IMG/VR virus record: IMGVR_UViG_3300026184_000144
Coordinates: 1 to 23,611 of that record
DNA: 23,611 bases
Direction: 5' to 3' (one strand)
Source: a virus
Made by a program: the position numbers and the translations under genes. Of this stretch, positions 5,663 to 13,605 are shown in pieces. Each line of letters begins with the position of its first letter. Within the stretch, counting starts at the first letter, position 1. Under the pieces are notes generated by a model. The model made no database searches and was not told the origin of the DNA. It saw only the letters and a program-made list of their open reading frames with translations.

Positions 5663-6498
5663 AGATATACCCGGCTGAGGTCTACAACCAATCCAGTGAG
5701 CGAATGCCCCAGGTTCCCAGCCAATCGGTGGACCTGGTAATCACCTCCCCGCCTTATAATGTCGGTGTCGATTATGCCGGCTATAACGACCTACAATTAA
5801 CCCAATTATATGTAAATATGCTTTCGAGCAGTCTTTCCGAATGTTATCGGGTCTTAAGACCCGGTGGCCGGATATGTATTAACGTGGCCAACCTGGAGCG
5901 AAAACCATATCGTCCATTGGTCAACCTACTAGAGGCTCTATTAGTATCACACCGTTTTATCTTAAAGGGTGAAATAATTTGGCACAAGTGGGATAACGCT
6001 AATTCTACCGCCTGGGGGTCCTGGCTATCTGCAAGTTCGCCGGCCCTCAGAGATACCCACGAATATATTTTAGTGGGAGCAAAAGGGACCGACCCCCTGG
6101 TTAAACCCATTGGTGGGGAGATGACCCTAGAACGTGAGGAGTTCATTAAGTGGACTAACTCAGTATGGAAGATTAGGCCAGCCAGCCGGCCCGATCATCC
6201 GGCTATATTCCCCAGGGAAATACCGGAGCGACTGATTAAGTTACTTACTTGGACCCATAGTACGGTATTGGACCCGTTCGCCGGTTCCGGTACTACCCTG
6301 GTAACTGCCAGGGAATTGGGCCGAAAGGCCATAGGCTACGAGCTATCGGAGGAGTATTTTTCACTCATTAAGAGCCGTGTATCTAGTGGAGTACAATCCT
6401 CATTAGAAGGCTTTTGGGAAAGCTATTTCTCAGATACCGACGTAGCCACAAAGGAGACAACAGAAAATGAGAACACTCATAAAACTGAAAAACATTGA
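5659..6498 (+). CDS. DNA methyltransferase, SPPY type (N4-cytosine or N6-adenine)
   Basis: A 279-aa amino-methyltransferase that moves a methyl group from S-adenosylmethionine to an exocyclic amino group in DNA. Motif IV (TSPPYN, 29-34) precedes motif I (DPFAGSGTT, 205-213), the beta-class order. LRPGGRICINVAN near 66-78 is the usual strand after motif IV, and PAIFPREIPERLIKL before motif I is typical. TSPPY is often seen in N4-cytosine enzymes, but the base cannot be fixed from sequence alone. No restriction endonuclease is adjacent, so it is probably an orphan protective or regulatory enzyme. It starts in an ATGA overlap, and its 3' end overlaps the next gene by 32 nt. The hydrophilic tail after about 250 is not part of the catalytic fold. 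Confidence 0.9.
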   Translation: MKIYPAEVYNQSSERMPQVPSQSVDLVITSPPYNVGVDYAGYNDLQLTQLYVNMLSSSLSECYRVLRPGGRICINVANLERKPYRPLVNLLEALLVSHRFILKGEIIWHKWDNANSTAWGSWLSASSPALRDTHEYILVGAKGTDPLVKPIGGEMTLEREEFIKWTNSVWKIRPASRPDHPAIFPREIPERLIKLLTWTHSTVLDPFAGSGTTLVTARELGRKAIGYELSEEYFSLIKSRVSSGVQSSLEGFWESYFSDTDVATKETTENENTHKTEKH

Positions 6499-6886
6499 TT
6501 ACGACGGCTACAACCAGGTAGCCGAGCTATTGTTCGAGTTGGTCCCCCAACTTGTTCTTAACGACAAATACCTTAGTTCTACTAAGGACGCCTATTTCTT
6601 AATAGACGATACCCAGGCGATTGATTTCGTCGCTAATTCAAGCGAATTAGAGGAAAAGCTCAAGGTCCTTACTACCCACCTTATGGAGGAGGACGGAGTA
6701 GAGGTATCATTCCAGGAGATTACTCCAGGGGTCACACCTCTAGATATTAACTACTCCGAGTCTAAATCTCACTATTGGGGGGAGGGCTCAGCTTCCCGGA
6801 GTTTTATCCTGGGACCTTTCGACGCCGGCGGGGACGAGGCGATCAAAGACCTCACAAAGGAGTTTAAGGAGGGGTTGGACCAATGA
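6467..6886 (+). CDS. Unknown 139-aa acidic protein
   Basis: Starts inside the end of the methyltransferase gene (32-nt overlap) at an ATG, and its stop overlaps the next ATG (ATGA at 6883). The sequence is acidic with alternating strand and helix segments and no cysteines. No family recognised. The coupled position next to the methyltransferase does not by itself assign a role. Confidence 0.6.
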   Translation: MRTLIKLKNIDYDGYNQVAELLFELVPQLVLNDKYLSSTKDAYFLIDDTQAIDFVANSSELEEKLKVLTTHLMEEDGVEVSFQEITPGVTPLDINYSESKSHYWGEGSASRSFILGPFDAGGDEAIKDLTKEFKEGLDQ

Positions 6887-7287
6887 GCGACGAGGTCCAA
6901 AATATGGCCTCCGTACTCAGCCGGCTACTAGACCAACCAATAGATACTTGGTCGGGAAAGGTCCGGTTCAAGGGAGAATTGGTCTCCTTGATATGGGAGA
7001 CTCCCGACACTAGAAGGATACTTAACAAACAGCTAACCGTTATCGTCCCCGAAGGCGTTAGCAAAAAAAGACCAGGAAACCTTATCGCTAAATTCCCCGT
7101 GGCCAAGGGATACACCAATAGGAACCTATTCTTTCGGTCCGTTAAGTTGTCCACCTCTCACCTCCTCCAGGCATTTAAGAAGATCGAGAGTTATATCGAC
7201 ATCCAGGCCATAGAGGAAAACAACGCCCGGAATATGGCCCGAACCCAGGGAATAGACATCCCAAAGGGTAAGCCGGCAAACTCTTAA
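6883..7287 (+). CDS. Unknown 134-aa protein
   Basis: Coupled to the upstream gene by ATGA. A basic central region (KKRPGNLIAKFPVAKGYTNR) and a helical C-terminal part are visible, with no transmembrane segment. Around residues 11-14 an AGCCGGCT palindrome encodes Ser-Arg-Leu, one of nine copies in the window. Function unknown. Confidence 0.6.
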   Translation: MSDEVQNMASVLSRLLDQPIDTWSGKVRFKGELVSLIWETPDTRRILNKQLTVIVPEGVSKKRPGNLIAKFPVAKGYTNRNLFFRSVKLSTSHLLQAFKKIESYIDIQAIEENNARNMARTQGIDIPKGKPANS

Positions 7288-7308
7288 ACTATCTGAGGTA
7301 TAATTATT

Positions 7309-7584
7309 ATGAAGATAGGGCGAATTTCAAACCATAGGGAGGACCGATACGACCCGGTAAATGAGGAATATCTAGAAGATCAATCATTCCTTGTTATCGA
7401 CCACCGCGAGGGTTGTATCCATAATTATACCGATGAATGTCAAGAGATTTATATTAGAGATAGTCTCCGCCTTATTTTTGATTTATCTATCATGGTTCTG
7501 GTCGTTTTATTTGACCGGTTAACCTGGCCAATAAGGAGGTTTTTCCAACGACTATCTACTCACCGCCGGACCCGGACCTCATAA
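7309..7584 (+). CDS. Small single-pass membrane protein
   Basis: A 91-aa protein that begins 21 nt after the previous stop, with GAGGTAT before the ATG. Residues about 53-76 form one hydrophobic segment (LRLIFDLSIMVLVVLFDRL), followed by a strongly basic tail (RRFFQRL, RRTRTS), which predicts a cytoplasmic C-terminus. Its TAA stop at 7582-7584 overlaps the ATA at 7581 proposed as the terminase start. Position beside terL might suggest a lysis or packaging link, but there is no family evidence. Confidence 0.6.
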   Translation: MKIGRISNHREDRYDPVNEEYLEDQSFLVIDHREGCIHNYTDECQEIYIRDSLRLIFDLSIMVLVVLFDRLTWPIRRFFQRLSTHRRTRTS

Positions 7585-9353
7585 TTAGGATACTACCGGA
7601 TAGTCCGGGGTATCATGAGGCTCTAGCCGGTCATAAGCGCTCGGCCCTATATCCTGGGGATGACCCCAAGAGGAAAGAGGCCTCCCTCCGTTATTATACT
7701 AAGTACGTCCTGGGTTGTCAATTTGCCGACCATTTACAAGGCCAATGGATACACTATCTAACCCATATCAACACTAAGGCGGATTGTCACACCGACGAGG
7801 ACGGTAACTCCCTACACGACACCAAGTCGGGCGGGTGGATTGCCTACCGTGGTTCCATCAAGTCCACTATATCCCAGGCTTATACTAGCTGGCAATTATT
7901 ACGACATACAATTTATGAAGATACCTACGATATGGCCGTAGGGTCCTACTCATTGAAGAAATTGGGTAGGGAATGGCTCCCCTCCGTGGAGGTTATGCTC
8001 GACCTGGCCAAGGAGGTACTAGATCTAGAGTTCGAGTATGACACCAACAACACAGAAGAAATTAAAATCACATTAACAAAGATGGACGGGCGGACTAAGG
8101 TATATCGGTCCGACGCTATCTCTAGAATACAGACAGCTAGTTATAAATCTCCAATTCGTATGATGCACCCCGACGAGTGGATTATAGACGATTGGTTAGA
8201 CGAAACAATGGGAGATTTCCAGGAGGGAGAAAGGAAATTCAGACAAGAACTACTAGGAACCAGGACGGCCGAATGGAAAGACGAGGCCACGGGTGGAGCC
8301 GGCAAAGGGACCATAGTTAATCTACTAGGGACCATCCTCCGAGAGGACGACCTCCTCCATATGATGTCAAAGGGTGAGCTAGGTAATTTCACATTTTACG
8401 GTAAGTTCCACGCCTACCTAGAAATCGAGGAGGGAGAGACATACTCCGAGAAAGAACTATCCAAAATGACCCCTACATGGAACCGTAGGCCCCACAAGTT
8501 CCTTATGGCCCAGCGAAAGGACCAGGGAGACCACATATTCCAGGTTGAATACTTACTCAATCCTATTAGTGATAAATCCGCCCTCATTAAACACGAATGG
8601 ATAGACCACGCCAAGAAAATGGGAGAGAATCTCTCCTATGGTAGGCGGAAACATAAGAACGCTATCACCTCAGTAAGTGCCGTCGATTTCCAGGTCTCGC
8701 CTGATGGCGATTGGGGGGTAATAATGTCTATGGAGGCCGTTCCATTCGATGACGATCTAGAGAAGAAACCAAGGGTTAGAATTCTAGAGATGGAGAGAGA
8801 AAGGGGATGGGATGACTACGCCGTCCTCGATTATATCTACACAGATTATAACAAATATCGCCATGACCTGGTAGGGTTCGAGGATAACGGGTTCCAAGCA
8901 TGGGCCGGCAATCGTGCTATTAGGGATAAAATTACTTTCCCTCTCTACCGGCATAATACAACCGGTAAGACCTACAAGAGAAAGTCCTCCCAGGATGTCC
9001 AACACTCCGGTAAGGGAATGGATAAACAAAAGCTCGACCTCATGGCCAGGCATAATATAGGTCTCCTCCGGTCTACTATGGCCACGTTCGATTTAGCCTT
9101 ACCAACAGCCACCGAAAGCGATAGAGAGAAAACAGCTATCATTACCAAGGAATTGAGAGGCTGGCAATGGGACAACTCCAAAGGTCGATACGTCCATAAA
9201 GGAAAGACTAAGGATACTAGCTTAGGCCTACTCATTGGGTTGATTACTCTAGATATAGCCCTCGGCTCATCCGTTGACGTGGAGGCCGTAGACCTGGACA
9301 ATGTCGAGGATGACTACGACGACCCCAGGGATATAGATATAACATTAAGGTAG
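7581..9353 (+). CDS. terL: Terminase large subunit, apparent ATA start
   Basis: The packaging motor and headful nuclease, 590 aa from the ATA at 7581. The first ATG (7932) would give 473 aa and lose the ATPase P-loop. In-frame codons before it encode a Walker A-like RGSIKST (90-96), and no ATG, GTG or TTG lies between the upstream stop at 7512 and 7932. Other landmarks: Walker B IIDD (201-204), coupling motif GTILREDD (about 250-257), then the RNase H-like nuclease with Asp369 (VDFQVS), Glu434 (FEDNGFQ) and Asp545 (DTSLGLL). The ATA overlaps the previous TAA (ATAA). ACG 7548 or ATC 7554 after AAGGAGGT (7533-7540) are alternative starts. The last codons overlap the 54-nt repeat. Identity is secure; the start is not. 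Confidence 0.92.
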   Translation: MIRILPDSPGYHEALAGHKRSALYPGDDPKRKEASLRYYTKYVLGCQFADHLQGQWIHYLTHINTKADCHTDEDGNSLHDTKSGGWIAYRGSIKSTISQAYTSWQLLRHTIYEDTYDMAVGSYSLKKLGREWLPSVEVMLDLAKEVLDLEFEYDTNNTEEIKITLTKMDGRTKVYRSDAISRIQTASYKSPIRMMHPDEWIIDDWLDETMGDFQEGERKFRQELLGTRTAEWKDEATGGAGKGTIVNLLGTILREDDLLHMMSKGELGNFTFYGKFHAYLEIEEGETYSEKELSKMTPTWNRRPHKFLMAQRKDQGDHIFQVEYLLNPISDKSALIKHEWIDHAKKMGENLSYGRRKHKNAITSVSAVDFQVSPDGDWGVIMSMEAVPFDDDLEKKPRVRILEMERERGWDDYAVLDYIYTDYNKYRHDLVGFEDNGFQAWAGNRAIRDKITFPLYRHNTTGKTYKRKSSQDVQHSGKGMDKQKLDLMARHNIGLLRSTMATFDLALPTATESDREKTAIITKELRGWQWDNSKGRYVHKGKTKDTSLGLLIGLITLDIALGSSVDVEAVDLDNVEDDYDDPRDIDITLR

Positions 9354-9402
9354 GTACTGCATGGACCACGTCGGAACCGAGGTCGTCGCTCGAAGGACAA
9401 CT
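9349..9402 (+). repeat. 54-nt direct repeat, copy 1
   Basis: Matches 18404-18457 in the same orientation and at identical length. The first 12 nt differ at one position, nt 13-19 are unrelated, and the last 35 nt (from ACGTCGG to GACAACT) differ at one position (C against A). It begins in the last codons of terL and ends in the gap before the gene at 9461. A small CGAG/CTCG hairpin is possible in the conserved part, but the differences between copies do not support one conserved RNA fold. It borders the head module on its left. Confidence 0.85.
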
Positions 9403-9422
9403 TTAAACCGAGGTGATAAGCC

Positions 9423-9443
9423 GTAAACTATAAGACTTTACAG
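9423..9443 (+). promoter_or_regulatory. TATA-like box within a GTAAA/TTTAC inverted repeat
   Basis: GTAAA (9423-9427) and TTTAC (9437-9441) flank CTATAAG (9428-9434). The TATA-like core lies about 30 nt before the ATG at 9461, which has no clear Shine-Dalgarno, fitting a leaderless or short-leader transcript. Similar TGTAAA/TTTACA pairs occur at 13550-13592 and 19127-19157, so this may be a shared operator of late promoters. Confidence 0.5.
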
Positions 9444-9460
9444 CCGGCTAGTAATATGTA

Positions 9461-9961
9461 ATGTCACTAGAGGAGATATTCGCCGAATTCTTGGGAGAGT
9501 TAATTTTAGGGGGAGCCGTTATCGGTGTCGCTTATATTTACAAGTCTCAAATGTTGGCAGTTATTAAGGAACTAGGTAAATTATGGATTAACCGGGACGA
9601 GGACCGGAAAGAGACCATTTACTCCGTGCTAGGTATTGAAGCAAATAAACACCACGGGAAAGAGGTCGAGGGTCCACCTCCAGGACCGGATAACCTACCA
9701 ACTAAAGATTGGTTGGAGGGGCAATTCGGAACCCTGGCCGAACAGAACCGAGACACCCAGGACCGTATTACAGTTATGGGCGTCCGTCTAGATATTCTAG
9801 AGGAAAGCCACAATATTAACCCGGATGTAAAGATAACCACCCAGGACGAGAAGAACCTCAAAAAGGCGGTTAAGACTATTGAGTCGGTCCCGACTCCAAA
9901 GAAGAAGGACCGAATTAAGGAGATAGACGACTTAATCTCCCAATACGACGAGGAGGAGTAA
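9461..9961 (+). CDS. Single-pass membrane protein between terL and portal
   Basis: A 166-aa protein. Residues about 10-28 (FLGELILGGAVIGVAYIY) form one membrane segment near the N-terminus. The rest is soluble and highly charged with a Pro-rich stretch (EGPPPGPDNLP), a helical region near 88-115 and a Lys/Glu-rich end. An N-terminal anchor with a long charged soluble part is also seen in some phage holin-like or spanin-like proteins, but no family is recognised and the position inside the packaging/head block gives no firm role. The stop lies 4 nt before the portal ATG. Confidence 0.65.
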   Translation: MSLEEIFAEFLGELILGGAVIGVAYIYKSQMLAVIKELGKLWINRDEDRKETIYSVLGIEANKHHGKEVEGPPPGPDNLPTKDWLEGQFGTLAEQNRDTQDRITVMGVRLDILEESHNINPDVKITTQDEKNLKKAVKTIESVPTPKKKDRIKEIDDLISQYDEEE

Positions 9962-9965
9962 TTAA

Positions 9966-12743
9966 ATGGGGTTTCTCGAAAATATAAGTAGATGGCTGAG
10001 GGGAGTACCCGAACCGTCGAATTTTTCCGGTGTGCTTATCGACGTCGAGGATACAGTCCTAGACGAGAACCATATCGCTAGAAACCAAGTCGAGGACCCA
10101 TTCAGTGAACAAACCCTCCGTAAGGCAAAACTCCCGGAGTGGTTCACCAATCACCCTTATGGAGTCCCTAGAACAGATAACGATTATCTATACCGTAAAC
10201 TGGCCCAAATGGGGATAGTTCAACGGTGTATAATGGTAGTTCTGGACGAGGTTCTAGATAGCCCGTGGGATATAGTACCCTCGGACCCTATGGACGACTC
10301 AGATAGTGTTAAGGCCGAGGCTACCAGGGTAAAGGAGAAGCTACTAAAGATCAACTCGAACGAGTCCTCCTACTTCCAGGAATGGAGAAAGGCATTAACG
10401 GACTATTTCGAGGTCGGGGACGGTGTCCTCGTTAAGATGTTTGATAGCTCAGCCTATACCGACGTCAACGGTCACAAATTACTTTTACCCAACACACCGG
10501 CGGGTAAGTTCGAGGCTTTCCAGGTTAAGGCCTACGACTCGACCCAATTCCAGGTATTCGCCACACCTTACGGGGACATACTAGGCCACTTCCAATTTAA
10601 TTTTAGAGCTAGTCCCCCTAGATTTTTTACACCCAGGGAAACGATTATCCTCCAGGATAACCCCACCACTTACCGCCACTATGGACGGTCCAGGATTAAA
10701 CAAGTTAAAGAGTTCCTGGAGATGGTGGGCGCCCAAATGCTTCAAATGAGAAATTACTATCAGAAAGGAGGTATTTTCCAGGGTATCGTTAAAACTACAG
10801 GGTTCGCCAAGGACGAGAGAGATAAGGTTAAGAAATTCTTTCAATCTAAATTTAGAACCATGGCGCACAAGATAGGCCTTATTCAGTCTACCAGTGAGTC
10901 GGCCACGGTTGACTTTATCCCACTTATGCTTAGTGTGGAGGACCTGGCATTCCTTAACGGGCTCGACTTTGTCCAAAGGTTCGTAGCCTCTGTTTATGGT
11001 GTCACTCCTGGAGAACTTGGTCTTAGTGGCGATGGGTCTAAAGCCGGTCGCGCTGAGGAGGGGCGAGTCTTTAGAAGGAGGACGGTCCGTACTATGAAAC
11101 ATATGATTGAGTACCGGACCAATAACGAGGTAATAGCTGAGTTATCCCCAGGTGGAACGGTTAAATTCCAATACGACAACACTCCCGAACCGGAGATTAG
11201 ACGTATCGAACAGGAAATCGCCGGCTCCCAGCTAGACCGGGACCAAATTACCCTTAACGAGTGGAGGTCTCAAAACGGATTACATCCCTATCCCGAAGGC
11301 TACGGAGATAAGCCCAAGGGATTGATGGAGCAAGAGAAAAAGGAGGAGAACGCCAAGATTATGGCCGAGAAGCTAGGCGGTAATGGGTCCACCCCTCCAG
11401 GCGTACCGGATGAAGGTAACGAGATGGAGGGACGAGAGGACTCCGATACCGAGCCGGCCGTTAGTTCTGAGGAGGACACCGAGGGAGGAGACCCCGAAAA
11501 GAAGGGCGAGGACCTGGACAAAAAGGCCCCCTATTTGAGGTCCCACGCCGACCCGGTCGTCCTGGCTACGGAGGTTCTTAAGATCGTAGTACCTCTAATT
11601 AATGGGTCCAAGAAGGATTTAGACGCCCAGGATGTCGATGTCTTTACACCCGATGAAAAGCCAAAGGCTGACATTGACGAGGAATGTATCTCCAAGAACT
11701 ACGCTAGGATTAAGACCAACTTCCCCGACATCGAGGACAAGGAGGCATTGGGTAGAGCCCTGGAAATATGCGCCCTGGCCAAACATCCCAGCGACTCGGA
11801 GAAAGACACCAAGGCCCTGGCTCGACAAGTGGACCTTAAGGATATTTCCGATAAGGAGAAGGATAAGCGACTCGATGAACTTTACACCCCCTTAGAGGAT
11901 GAAATCCGGTCCAATGCAACCAAGCTATTCAATGAGTGGAGGGAGCAACTTCTCAATTTACCACTAGAAACTATGAGCCTGGACGACGTTAAACGGACGG
12001 TGGAGCAAATAGTAGACCACGGACAATTAGCCGAGGTAATAGCTGAGGAGTTATTCGAGGCATTCCTTACAGGTCTCAAATTGACCGATGATCTAGAACT
12101 AGAGGAGTTAGGAAGTTTCAACCTACCCGATAGCCAGGCCATTGAGTACTTTAAGTCCCAGCCCCTTATAGTGGCCGAGTCAATCGCCGAGAGACTGGAG
12201 AACCGGCTAAGGTTCGAGCTAAGGGACTCCATTACCAAGGGAATTAGTATACCCAAGATGAGGGAGAAAATACGGTCAGTAATGGGAGATTTCACAGATT
12301 ACGAGTCCGACCGGCTGGCCAGGACCGAGGTTACCAACGCCTCGACCTGGGGAAGAATTAACCAAATGCGAGCCAACGGCCGGGACGAGTGGAAGTTCTA
12401 CACCGCCCTGGACGAGAGGGTTTGTCCTCAGTGTGGCCCCTTACATGGGAATGTATTCGACATAAAGGACCTGGAGTTTAAGCCTCCAGTCCATCCTAAT
12501 TGTAGATGTACGGTCTTAACAACCGTTGGAGACTCAGACACTAAGTCCGCCTGGTTCCCTACCGCCGAGATAGGTAAGATCGAATTCAAGTATAAGAGAC
12601 CCATCGAGAACATTCTAACCGAATTGTACGTTATAGAGGACCTCGGTTATCGTGGTGTAAGCCGTGAATTAGAGGTAAGCCATACAACAATAGCCAATTG
12701 GGTTAAAATGATTGGTATTCAAAAACAGGAAGTAGAAGCCTAA
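9966..12743 (+). CDS. Portal - MuF - HTH fusion protein
   Basis: A 925-aa protein with at least three parts. Residues about 30-435 are a portal protein (DNA entry ring at the capsid vertex): SPWDIVP, a long ring region, and FVASVYGVTPGELGL near 340-354, followed by a C-terminal crown. About 450-540 is a charged linker. About 570-610 has DIDEECISKNYARI...ALEICALAK, like a Cys-containing helical domain known from other phage head proteins. About 783-850 is an SPP1 gp7/Mu F-type domain: ARTEV, then the cysteines CPQC and HPNCRC that probably bind zinc. The last 44 residues (882-925) read as an added HTH (YRGVSRELEVSHTTIANWV). Portal-MuF fusions are known in tailed viruses; the HTH end is unusual. 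Confidence 0.88.
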   Translation: MGFLENISRWLRGVPEPSNFSGVLIDVEDTVLDENHIARNQVEDPFSEQTLRKAKLPEWFTNHPYGVPRTDNDYLYRKLAQMGIVQRCIMVVLDEVLDSPWDIVPSDPMDDSDSVKAEATRVKEKLLKINSNESSYFQEWRKALTDYFEVGDGVLVKMFDSSAYTDVNGHKLLLPNTPAGKFEAFQVKAYDSTQFQVFATPYGDILGHFQFNFRASPPRFFTPRETIILQDNPTTYRHYGRSRIKQVKEFLEMVGAQMLQMRNYYQKGGIFQGIVKTTGFAKDERDKVKKFFQSKFRTMAHKIGLIQSTSESATVDFIPLMLSVEDLAFLNGLDFVQRFVASVYGVTPGELGLSGDGSKAGRAEEGRVFRRRTVRTMKHMIEYRTNNEVIAELSPGGTVKFQYDNTPEPEIRRIEQEIAGSQLDRDQITLNEWRSQNGLHPYPEGYGDKPKGLMEQEKKEENAKIMAEKLGGNGSTPPGVPDEGNEMEGREDSDTEPAVSSEEDTEGGDPEKKGEDLDKKAPYLRSHADPVVLATEVLKIVVPLINGSKKDLDAQDVDVFTPDEKPKADIDEECISKNYARIKTNFPDIEDKEALGRALEICALAKHPSDSEKDTKALARQVDLKDISDKEKDKRLDELYTPLEDEIRSNATKLFNEWREQLLNLPLETMSLDDVKRTVEQIVDHGQLAEVIAEELFEAFLTGLKLTDDLELEELGSFNLPDSQAIEYFKSQPLIVAESIAERLENRLRFELRDSITKGISIPKMREKIRSVMGDFTDYESDRLARTEVTNASTWGRINQMRANGRDEWKFYTALDERVCPQCGPLHGNVFDIKDLEFKPPVHPNCRCTVLTTVGDSDTKSAWFPTAEIGKIEFKYKRPIENILTELYVIEDLGYRGVSRELEVSHTTIANWVKMIGIQKQEVEA

Positions 12744-12876: not shown

Positions 12877-13269
12877 TTAGAAGGATTTAGCATTCGGAGG
12901 AATATCGAGTTTCTTAAACTCGAACTTATCCTTAATGTGGCTATGGAAATATTTACCGTGAGACTCGGCCTTAAGTAATTCCATATACTCCAATAGCGGA
13001 ACCTCGCTATATTCATAGACGTTACCGCCCTTGAACCTAATAGATAGTATCTCGGTATCCTGGTTATACCGGACGGCCTCTAGATTGGATGAATTAAGGA
13101 GAACAATCTCTCCTATGTTCTTAAATATTTCAATCTCTTTCTTAACTCCCTGGAGGGCCTCGATAACGTAATCGAGTTGATCGGTCCCAACATTGAGACC
13201 CCACATAGTGGAATAACCTTGTTCTTCTATTCGGGCCTCCTCGCCCTTTCTATAAACATTCAGTGTCAT
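12877..13269 (-). CDS. KTSC-domain protein
   Basis: A 130-aa protein whose residues about 60-121 match the KTSC domain pattern: SSNLEAVRYN, then LSIRF, GGNVYEYSEVP, a helix ending AESHGKYF, and a final IKDKFEFKKL strand. KTSC was named for its occurrence at the C-terminus of some lysyl-tRNA synthetases and occurs as a small stand-alone protein in many phages; its activity is not established. The N-terminal half here is unrelated, with a helical stretch at 31-52. It lies on the minus strand among plus-strand late genes, with its own TATA box 28 nt upstream of the ATG and almost no leader ribosome site. Confidence 0.75.
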   Translation of the reverse strand: MTLNVYRKGEEARIEEQGYSTMWGLNVGTDQLDYVIEALQGVKKEIEIFKNIGEIVLLNSSNLEAVRYNQDTEILSIRFKGGNVYEYSEVPLLEYMELLKAESHGKYFHSHIKDKFEFKKLDIPPNAKSF

Positions 13270-13311
13270 AGTGAGTAAGTATTCTCTAGATAATTTATAA
13301 AATGTCTTAAT
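13265..13311 (-). promoter_or_regulatory. Minus-strand promoter unit A (near-duplicate of unit B)
   Basis: Read on the minus strand, a TATA core (TTTATAAA, 13294-13301) is followed by GAGAATACTTACTCACT and then the ATG at 13269. TATA centre to ATG is about 28 nt, so the mRNA is probably leaderless or nearly so. The unit is nearly identical to 13485-13531, exactly 220 bp away. Confidence 0.7.
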
Positions 13312-13489
13312 CTAATTTCTCTAGTTTGTACGAGGTTAAATCATGAATATTAACGGTTATTTCGGTACTATCAGTCTTAAAAGTGATAGTTTGTAAATCT
13401 AAATCTTTGGTTACTTTTGGCTTAGCCTTGAAAGTATGTTCTTCTAAAGGCTCATTATGGTTGTATCGGATTGATAATCGATGGGTCAT
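13307..13489 (-). CDS. 60-aa protein, unknown
   Basis: A short basic/polar protein with strand-like alternation (LQTITFKTDSTEITVNIHDL), suggesting a small beta fold. It has its own copy of the promoter used by the KTSC gene and, like it, starts Met-Thr. The near-identical upstream region and start context indicate duplication of a promoter-start cassette rather than of the whole gene, since the two proteins are unrelated beyond the first residues. The stop lies close to promoter A. Function unknown. Confidence 0.6.
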   Translation of the reverse strand: MTHRLSIRYNHNEPLEEHTFKAKPKVTKDLDLQTITFKTDSTEITVNIHDLTSYKLEKLD

Positions 13490-13531
13490 AGTGAGTAAGT
13501 ATTCTCCAGGTCCCTTATAAAATGTCGTTAC
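13485..13531 (-). promoter_or_regulatory. Minus-strand promoter unit B
   Basis: Read on the minus strand, TTTTATAA (13515-13522) is followed after a short variable stretch by GAGAATACTTACTCACT and the ATG at 13489. About 38 of 47 positions match unit A, with differences concentrated between the TATA box and the GAGAATAC block and at the far upstream edge. The conserved block downstream of the TATA box could be an initiator or a regulator site. Confidence 0.7.
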
Positions 13532-13549
13532 ATCATACGGTAAGCATAA

Positions 13550-13605
13550 CTGTAAACCCCCAGCCGGCCCATAGACTTAGGTAATTTTACAGCATATATA
13601 TTAAG
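13550..13605 (+). promoter_or_regulatory. Promoter of the protease gene with CTGTAAA/TTTACAG inverted repeat
   Basis: CTGTAAA (13550-13556) is perfectly inverted as TTTACAG (13586-13592), directly next to a TATA box (TATATATTAAG, 13595-13605) identical to that of dpdA. The protease ATG is at 13630, preceded by GGTGAT at 13612-13617. The inverted repeat upstream of the TATA box is a likely activator or repressor site. It shares a short gap with divergent promoter B. Confidence 0.6.

Follow-up and report, generated by a model that had tools for sequence, protein, structure and literature searches.

A divergent viral terminase gene lacking a standard start codon upstream of its Walker A motif

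The large terminase gene (terL) of an uncultured tailed virus known from one metagenomic record has no ATG, GTG or TTG codon in the part of its reading frame that encodes the Walker A motif. We analysed the whole 23,611-bp virus sequence, called the window here. The terL frame runs open from 7515, directly after a TGA at 7512-7514, for 612 codons to a TAG at 9351-9353. None of the 139 codons between 7515 and 7931 is a standard start. A preliminary description of this DNA had drawn attention to the gap; our codon scan agrees with it, and the observation that an essential N-terminus lacks a standard start codon is confirmed. Where, then, does translation of terL begin? Most probably the start site is at 7548, where an ACG codon follows a strong Shine-Dalgarno (SD) sequence, and not at the ATA codon at 7581. 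The account that we tentatively prefer is that terL is an ordinary gene that would start at 7548 behind the ribosome-binding site AAGGAGGT, and that its ACG is a single-base departure from ATG in this one contig. Either the consensus would be in error at this base, or the assembly would have taken up a strain-level variant; the functional genome would carry a standard start at the same position.

If initiation at ACG proved true, an essential viral gene would use a codon that is not among the accepted prokaryotic starts, and gene finders would truncate such terminases, dropping the ATPase motif. If a base departure is responsible, the case calls for caution: automatic annotation would call TerL from 7932, without Walker A.

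The terL frame and its product

ATG, GTG and TTG make up 3.9% of the internal codons of the window. Given this background, a run of 139 codons lacking all three has a probability of about 0.004; for the 128 codons counted from 7548, it is about 0.006.

Judged by its profile match and motifs, the product of the frame is a terminase large subunit. In the PHROG collection it matches phrog_38 ('terminase large subunit') over residues 72-468 of the translation that begins at 7515. The match thus begins near 7728, well upstream of 7932, which bears out the earlier claim that a TerL N-terminus with RGSIKST precedes the first standard start codon. In Pfam, 7578-9350 matched nothing at E 0.01 or better; the sole weak match (E 0.09) is irrelevant. 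A local BLASTP comparison with a plasmid-borne terminase set YRGSIKST on PRGEAKST and PDEWIIDD on PDLVVLDD, and the stretches SAVDFQ, FEDNGFQ and KDTSLG appear to be placed like nuclease motifs. A single-sequence AlphaFold2 model, which bears on the RNase H-like nuclease fold, had a mean pLDDT of 33 and was discarded. With the Caudoviricetes TerL proteins of phrog_38, the predicted protein shares a Walker A of the form RGxxKST, a Walker B-like motif, putative nuclease-like stretches and a gene position just upstream of a portal-MuF gene. Unlike them, it is encoded by a gene with no standard start upstream of Walker A, and it is so divergent that tblastn against 50,697 phage records gave no relative at E <= 0.01.

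The coding signal in the TerL frame is convincing from about 7617-7626 on, and the segment 7626-7931 outscored every out-of-frame control window. A start at 7932 would cost the protein its ATPase P-loop, because Walker A lies upstream of that codon. That TerL nonetheless begins at ATG 7932, the first standard start codon of its frame, or that the gene is a dead remnant, is therefore very improbable: Walker A would be lost although the roughly 100 codons before 7932 look coding, and neither the terL frame nor any other structural gene recognised in the virus is broken.

Table 1. Features in and around the 5' part of terL (positions in the window)
Feature	Position	Strand	Remarks
Upstream ORF, 91 aa, overlapping terL in another frame	7309..7584	+	own SD TCTGAGGTA, -7.0 kcal/mol
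AAGGAGGT, proposed terL Shine-Dalgarno	7533..7540	+	8-nt anti-SD match, -11.8 kcal/mol
terL reading frame from proposed start	7548..9353	+	601 codons + stop; phrog_38, E 6e-15
ACG, probable terL start position	7548..7550	+	8 nt behind AAGGAGGT
ATAA overlap	7581..7584	+	SD -3.5 kcal/mol, fold -17.6 kcal/mol; weak candidate
Walker A motif RGSIKST	7848..7868	+	motif reading; paired with plasmid terminase
First ATG/GTG/TTG of terL frame	7932..7934	+	downstream of Walker A
Walker B-like EWIIDD	8175..8192	+	aligned with PDLVVLDD of plasmid terminase

Candidate start sites

When TerL was aligned by MAFFT with distant terminases, at low identity, an F..F(V)-like element stood ahead of Walker A, and LRYYTKYVLG (7686-7715) may be its counterpart. 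The distant terminase frames that we examined have standard starts close to the beginning of the frame. From this placement and these starts, the start of terL should precede about 7690. Six near-standard codons lie in frame between 7515 and 7690: CTG 7524, ACG 7548, ATC 7554, ATA 7581, ATT 7584 and ATA 7590. Among them only ACG 7548 and ATC 7554 have a strong SD upstream; the preliminary description had placed both behind AAGGAGGT, and this was borne out. The sequence is the longest and strongest SD among the starts examined in the window. Most other starts there have a spacing of 7-10 nt. ACG 7548 is the only near-standard in-frame codon at a normal distance, while ATC 7554, 14 nt away, falls outside this mode. 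The predicted fold from -30 to +30 around 7548 is ordinary (-9.1 kcal/mol). Because SD strength and spacing fit best there, 7548 is the probable start site.

Could the SD be fortuitous? AAGGAGGT recurs at 8010, 10765 and 18320, two of these positions being within genes, and AAGGAGG is common within genes of this virus (15 on the plus strand). Given this frequency, a chance match before 7548 is conceivable.

The preliminary description had instead favoured ATA 7581, coupled to the end of the upstream ORF. The geometry that it described is real: the ATA overlaps the TAA at 7582-7584, and ATGA, TTGA or GTGA couplings are indeed common in the window (ends at 233, 3744, 5360, 5662, 6886 and 21581). 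The preference itself did not hold. The best SD pairing at ATA 7581 is far weaker than that at 7548, and no other -30 to +30 context in the comparison is as structured (Table 1). A coupled start also needs a real gene that ends at 7584. The upstream ORF, which has a hydrophobic segment in its C-terminal half, shows some coding signal to about 7523 and none in its last 20 or so codons, and this weakens the case for coupling. Overall the ORF falls in the bottom 2% of coding windows, and neither Pfam nor PHROG gave a family match for it.

Weighing the explanations

To our knowledge, ACG is not accepted as a prokaryotic start codon, and it is not on the start list of NCBI table 11. For this reason a one-base departure from ATG is our leading reading. 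Each of the other clear genes in the window opens with a standard codon near the beginning of its frame, so unusual starts are not a habit of this virus. In metagenome contigs, a consensus error or a strain variant can remove a start codon. The site at 7548 resembles such losses in lying one base from ATG, at the expected spacing from an intact SD, in a single record; it differs in that a loss here would be provable only with reads. Against a departure stand the lack of any copy of the site in other viral contigs, the poor codon usage of the TerL frame between 7548 and 7625 and the possibility that the SD is fortuitous. Even so, a base departure in a single contig accounts for the data at least as well as non-standard initiation.

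Genuine initiation at ACG 7548 is unlikely, but it deserves to be taken seriously. An essential packaging gene of a tailed virus, possibly archaeal, would truly be translated from ACG by way of a near-perfect SD, whose strength (-11.8 kcal/mol at 8-nt spacing) would offset the poor codon while terminase was kept low. Terminase is needed in few copies. A parallel might be drawn with infC, which starts at ATT, and with the GTC of sigR: in each case an SD precedes a codon other than ATG, GTG or TTG. Those non-canonical starts have been shown experimentally, whereas the one considered here is known from one sequence and uses a codon off table 11. Prokaryotic non-canonical starts do exist, and in Streptomyces the sigR GTC start is repressed through IF3 (PMC5472188). 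Archaeal aIF1, on the other hand, is reported to counteract initiation at non-canonical codons (PMC6237735), which favours a departure. Besides the low standing of ACG, the absence of the pattern from other genes in the window argues against this explanation.

The weak point of any start at 7548 is the stretch that follows it, where TerL-frame codon usage ranks in the bottom 0.9% of true coding windows. The stretch 7548-7625 may encode an unusual, proline-rich N-terminal tail that is constrained by the overlap. Its weak signal may also point to a later start or to an indel that hides one. If the contig or the genome itself carried a one-base indel, the real start would be masked: it could be the out-of-frame ATG at 7615, or the upstream ORF could in fact be in frame with terL. 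We regard this, too, as unlikely. Although 7548-7625 looks non-coding, and ATG 7615 has a moderate SD (-6.4 kcal/mol), the distance of that SD is very short and the window's best SD would go unused. Nor is the hydrophobic segment of the upstream ORF like a terminase N-terminus, and the recognised genes show no other frame lesion. Initiation at another near-standard codon (ATC 7554, ATA 7581, ATT 7584 or ATA 7590), perhaps with ribosomes re-initiating past the TAA at 7582-7584, is more doubtful still. ATC, ATA and ATT are start codons in table 11, and the ATAA overlap has its counterparts among the couplings of the window, but the spacing of ATC 7554, the weak SD and structured context of ATA 7581 and the non-coding end of the upstream ORF all speak against it. 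Least probable of all is a programmed -1 frameshift from the upstream ORF into terL within the overlap 7515-7584. The two frames do stand in a -1 relation, and within the overlap TTT TTC follows an SD-like AAGGAGG. However, we saw no X XXY YYZ heptamer at that point when reading the overlap by eye, and an SD directly upstream typifies +1 sites such as prfB, not -1 sites. The fusion would also place a hydrophobic segment before the motor.

Relatives and viral context

A second copy of the site would bear on the preferred reading of ACG 7548 as a departure from ATG. Searches of viral contigs, GTDB contigs, phages, plasmids and about 1,310 archaeal genomes gave no TerL relative, and the start site, with the codon's middle base left open, was not found in other viral contigs; very near records may be missing from the searched sets, and these absences say little about sister genomes. 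Against GTDB contigs, plasmids and phages, TerL gave a plasmid terminase (22.8%), a Bacillus phage terminase and other weak matches, all at E > 0.1. Whole genomes of four archaeal phyla (227, 398, 293 and 393) yielded one weak match, L094, which was rejected because its 202-aa frame adjoins a primase-like cellular ORF. Exact peptides from TerL, capsid, portal and methyltransferase, scanned against IMG/VR, gave no confirmed relative, and six matches to a degenerate FQxEYLLNP pattern were all due to chance. Hand-built query alignments of masked motif variants, whose rows are synthetic, served to steer scan patterns only, and none was confirmed. A MuF-domain scan found 80 loci, helpful for portal and protease relatives, none of them with a close TerL. 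Rfam gave no intron or other RNA family in 6400-9500. Among the terminase frames compared, L178 (from the record of L168) and L010 (MT835760.1) have an apparent intein-like insertion within or near Walker A, ending in VVHNS or VCHNS.

Outside terL, the window is a structural module of a tailed virus: a portal-MuF fusion, prohead protease, HK97-like capsid protein, adaptor, tail proteins and tape measure. The ORF at 9966-12743 combines a portal domain with a MuF domain and, at its C-terminus, a helix-turn-helix-like stretch (PF18024, below cut-off). T/A-rich boxes lie about 25-37 nt upstream of several starts: TTATATATTAA before 824, CATATATATTAAG before 13630 and, at position -32 of two minus-strand genes (starts 13269 and 13489), TTTATAA. 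Four starts have an AGGTGA-type SD. The boxes and SDs suggest, as far as sequence features can, an archaeal host. The top-scoring relatives of the DNA methyltransferase are mixed, bacterial and archaeal, and do not decide the host.

Several smaller features were noted along the window. Between genes, 619-704 forms a polypyrimidine tract on the plus strand, with C or T at 76 of 86 bases. The ORF at 764-1573 is listed from a TTG at 764 that has no SD; ATG 824, preceded by GGAG and with its TTATATATTAA box about 26-30 nt upstream, is the likelier start. The 250-aa product of this ORF had no match in Pfam, PHROG or NCBIfam. The leaders of the minus-strand genes at 13269 and 13489 (13249-13340 and 13469-13560) are near-identical, each with ACATTTTATAA some 32-36 nt upstream and GAGAATACTTACTCACT immediately ahead of the ATG, and they resemble a duplicated archaeal-type promoter and leader.
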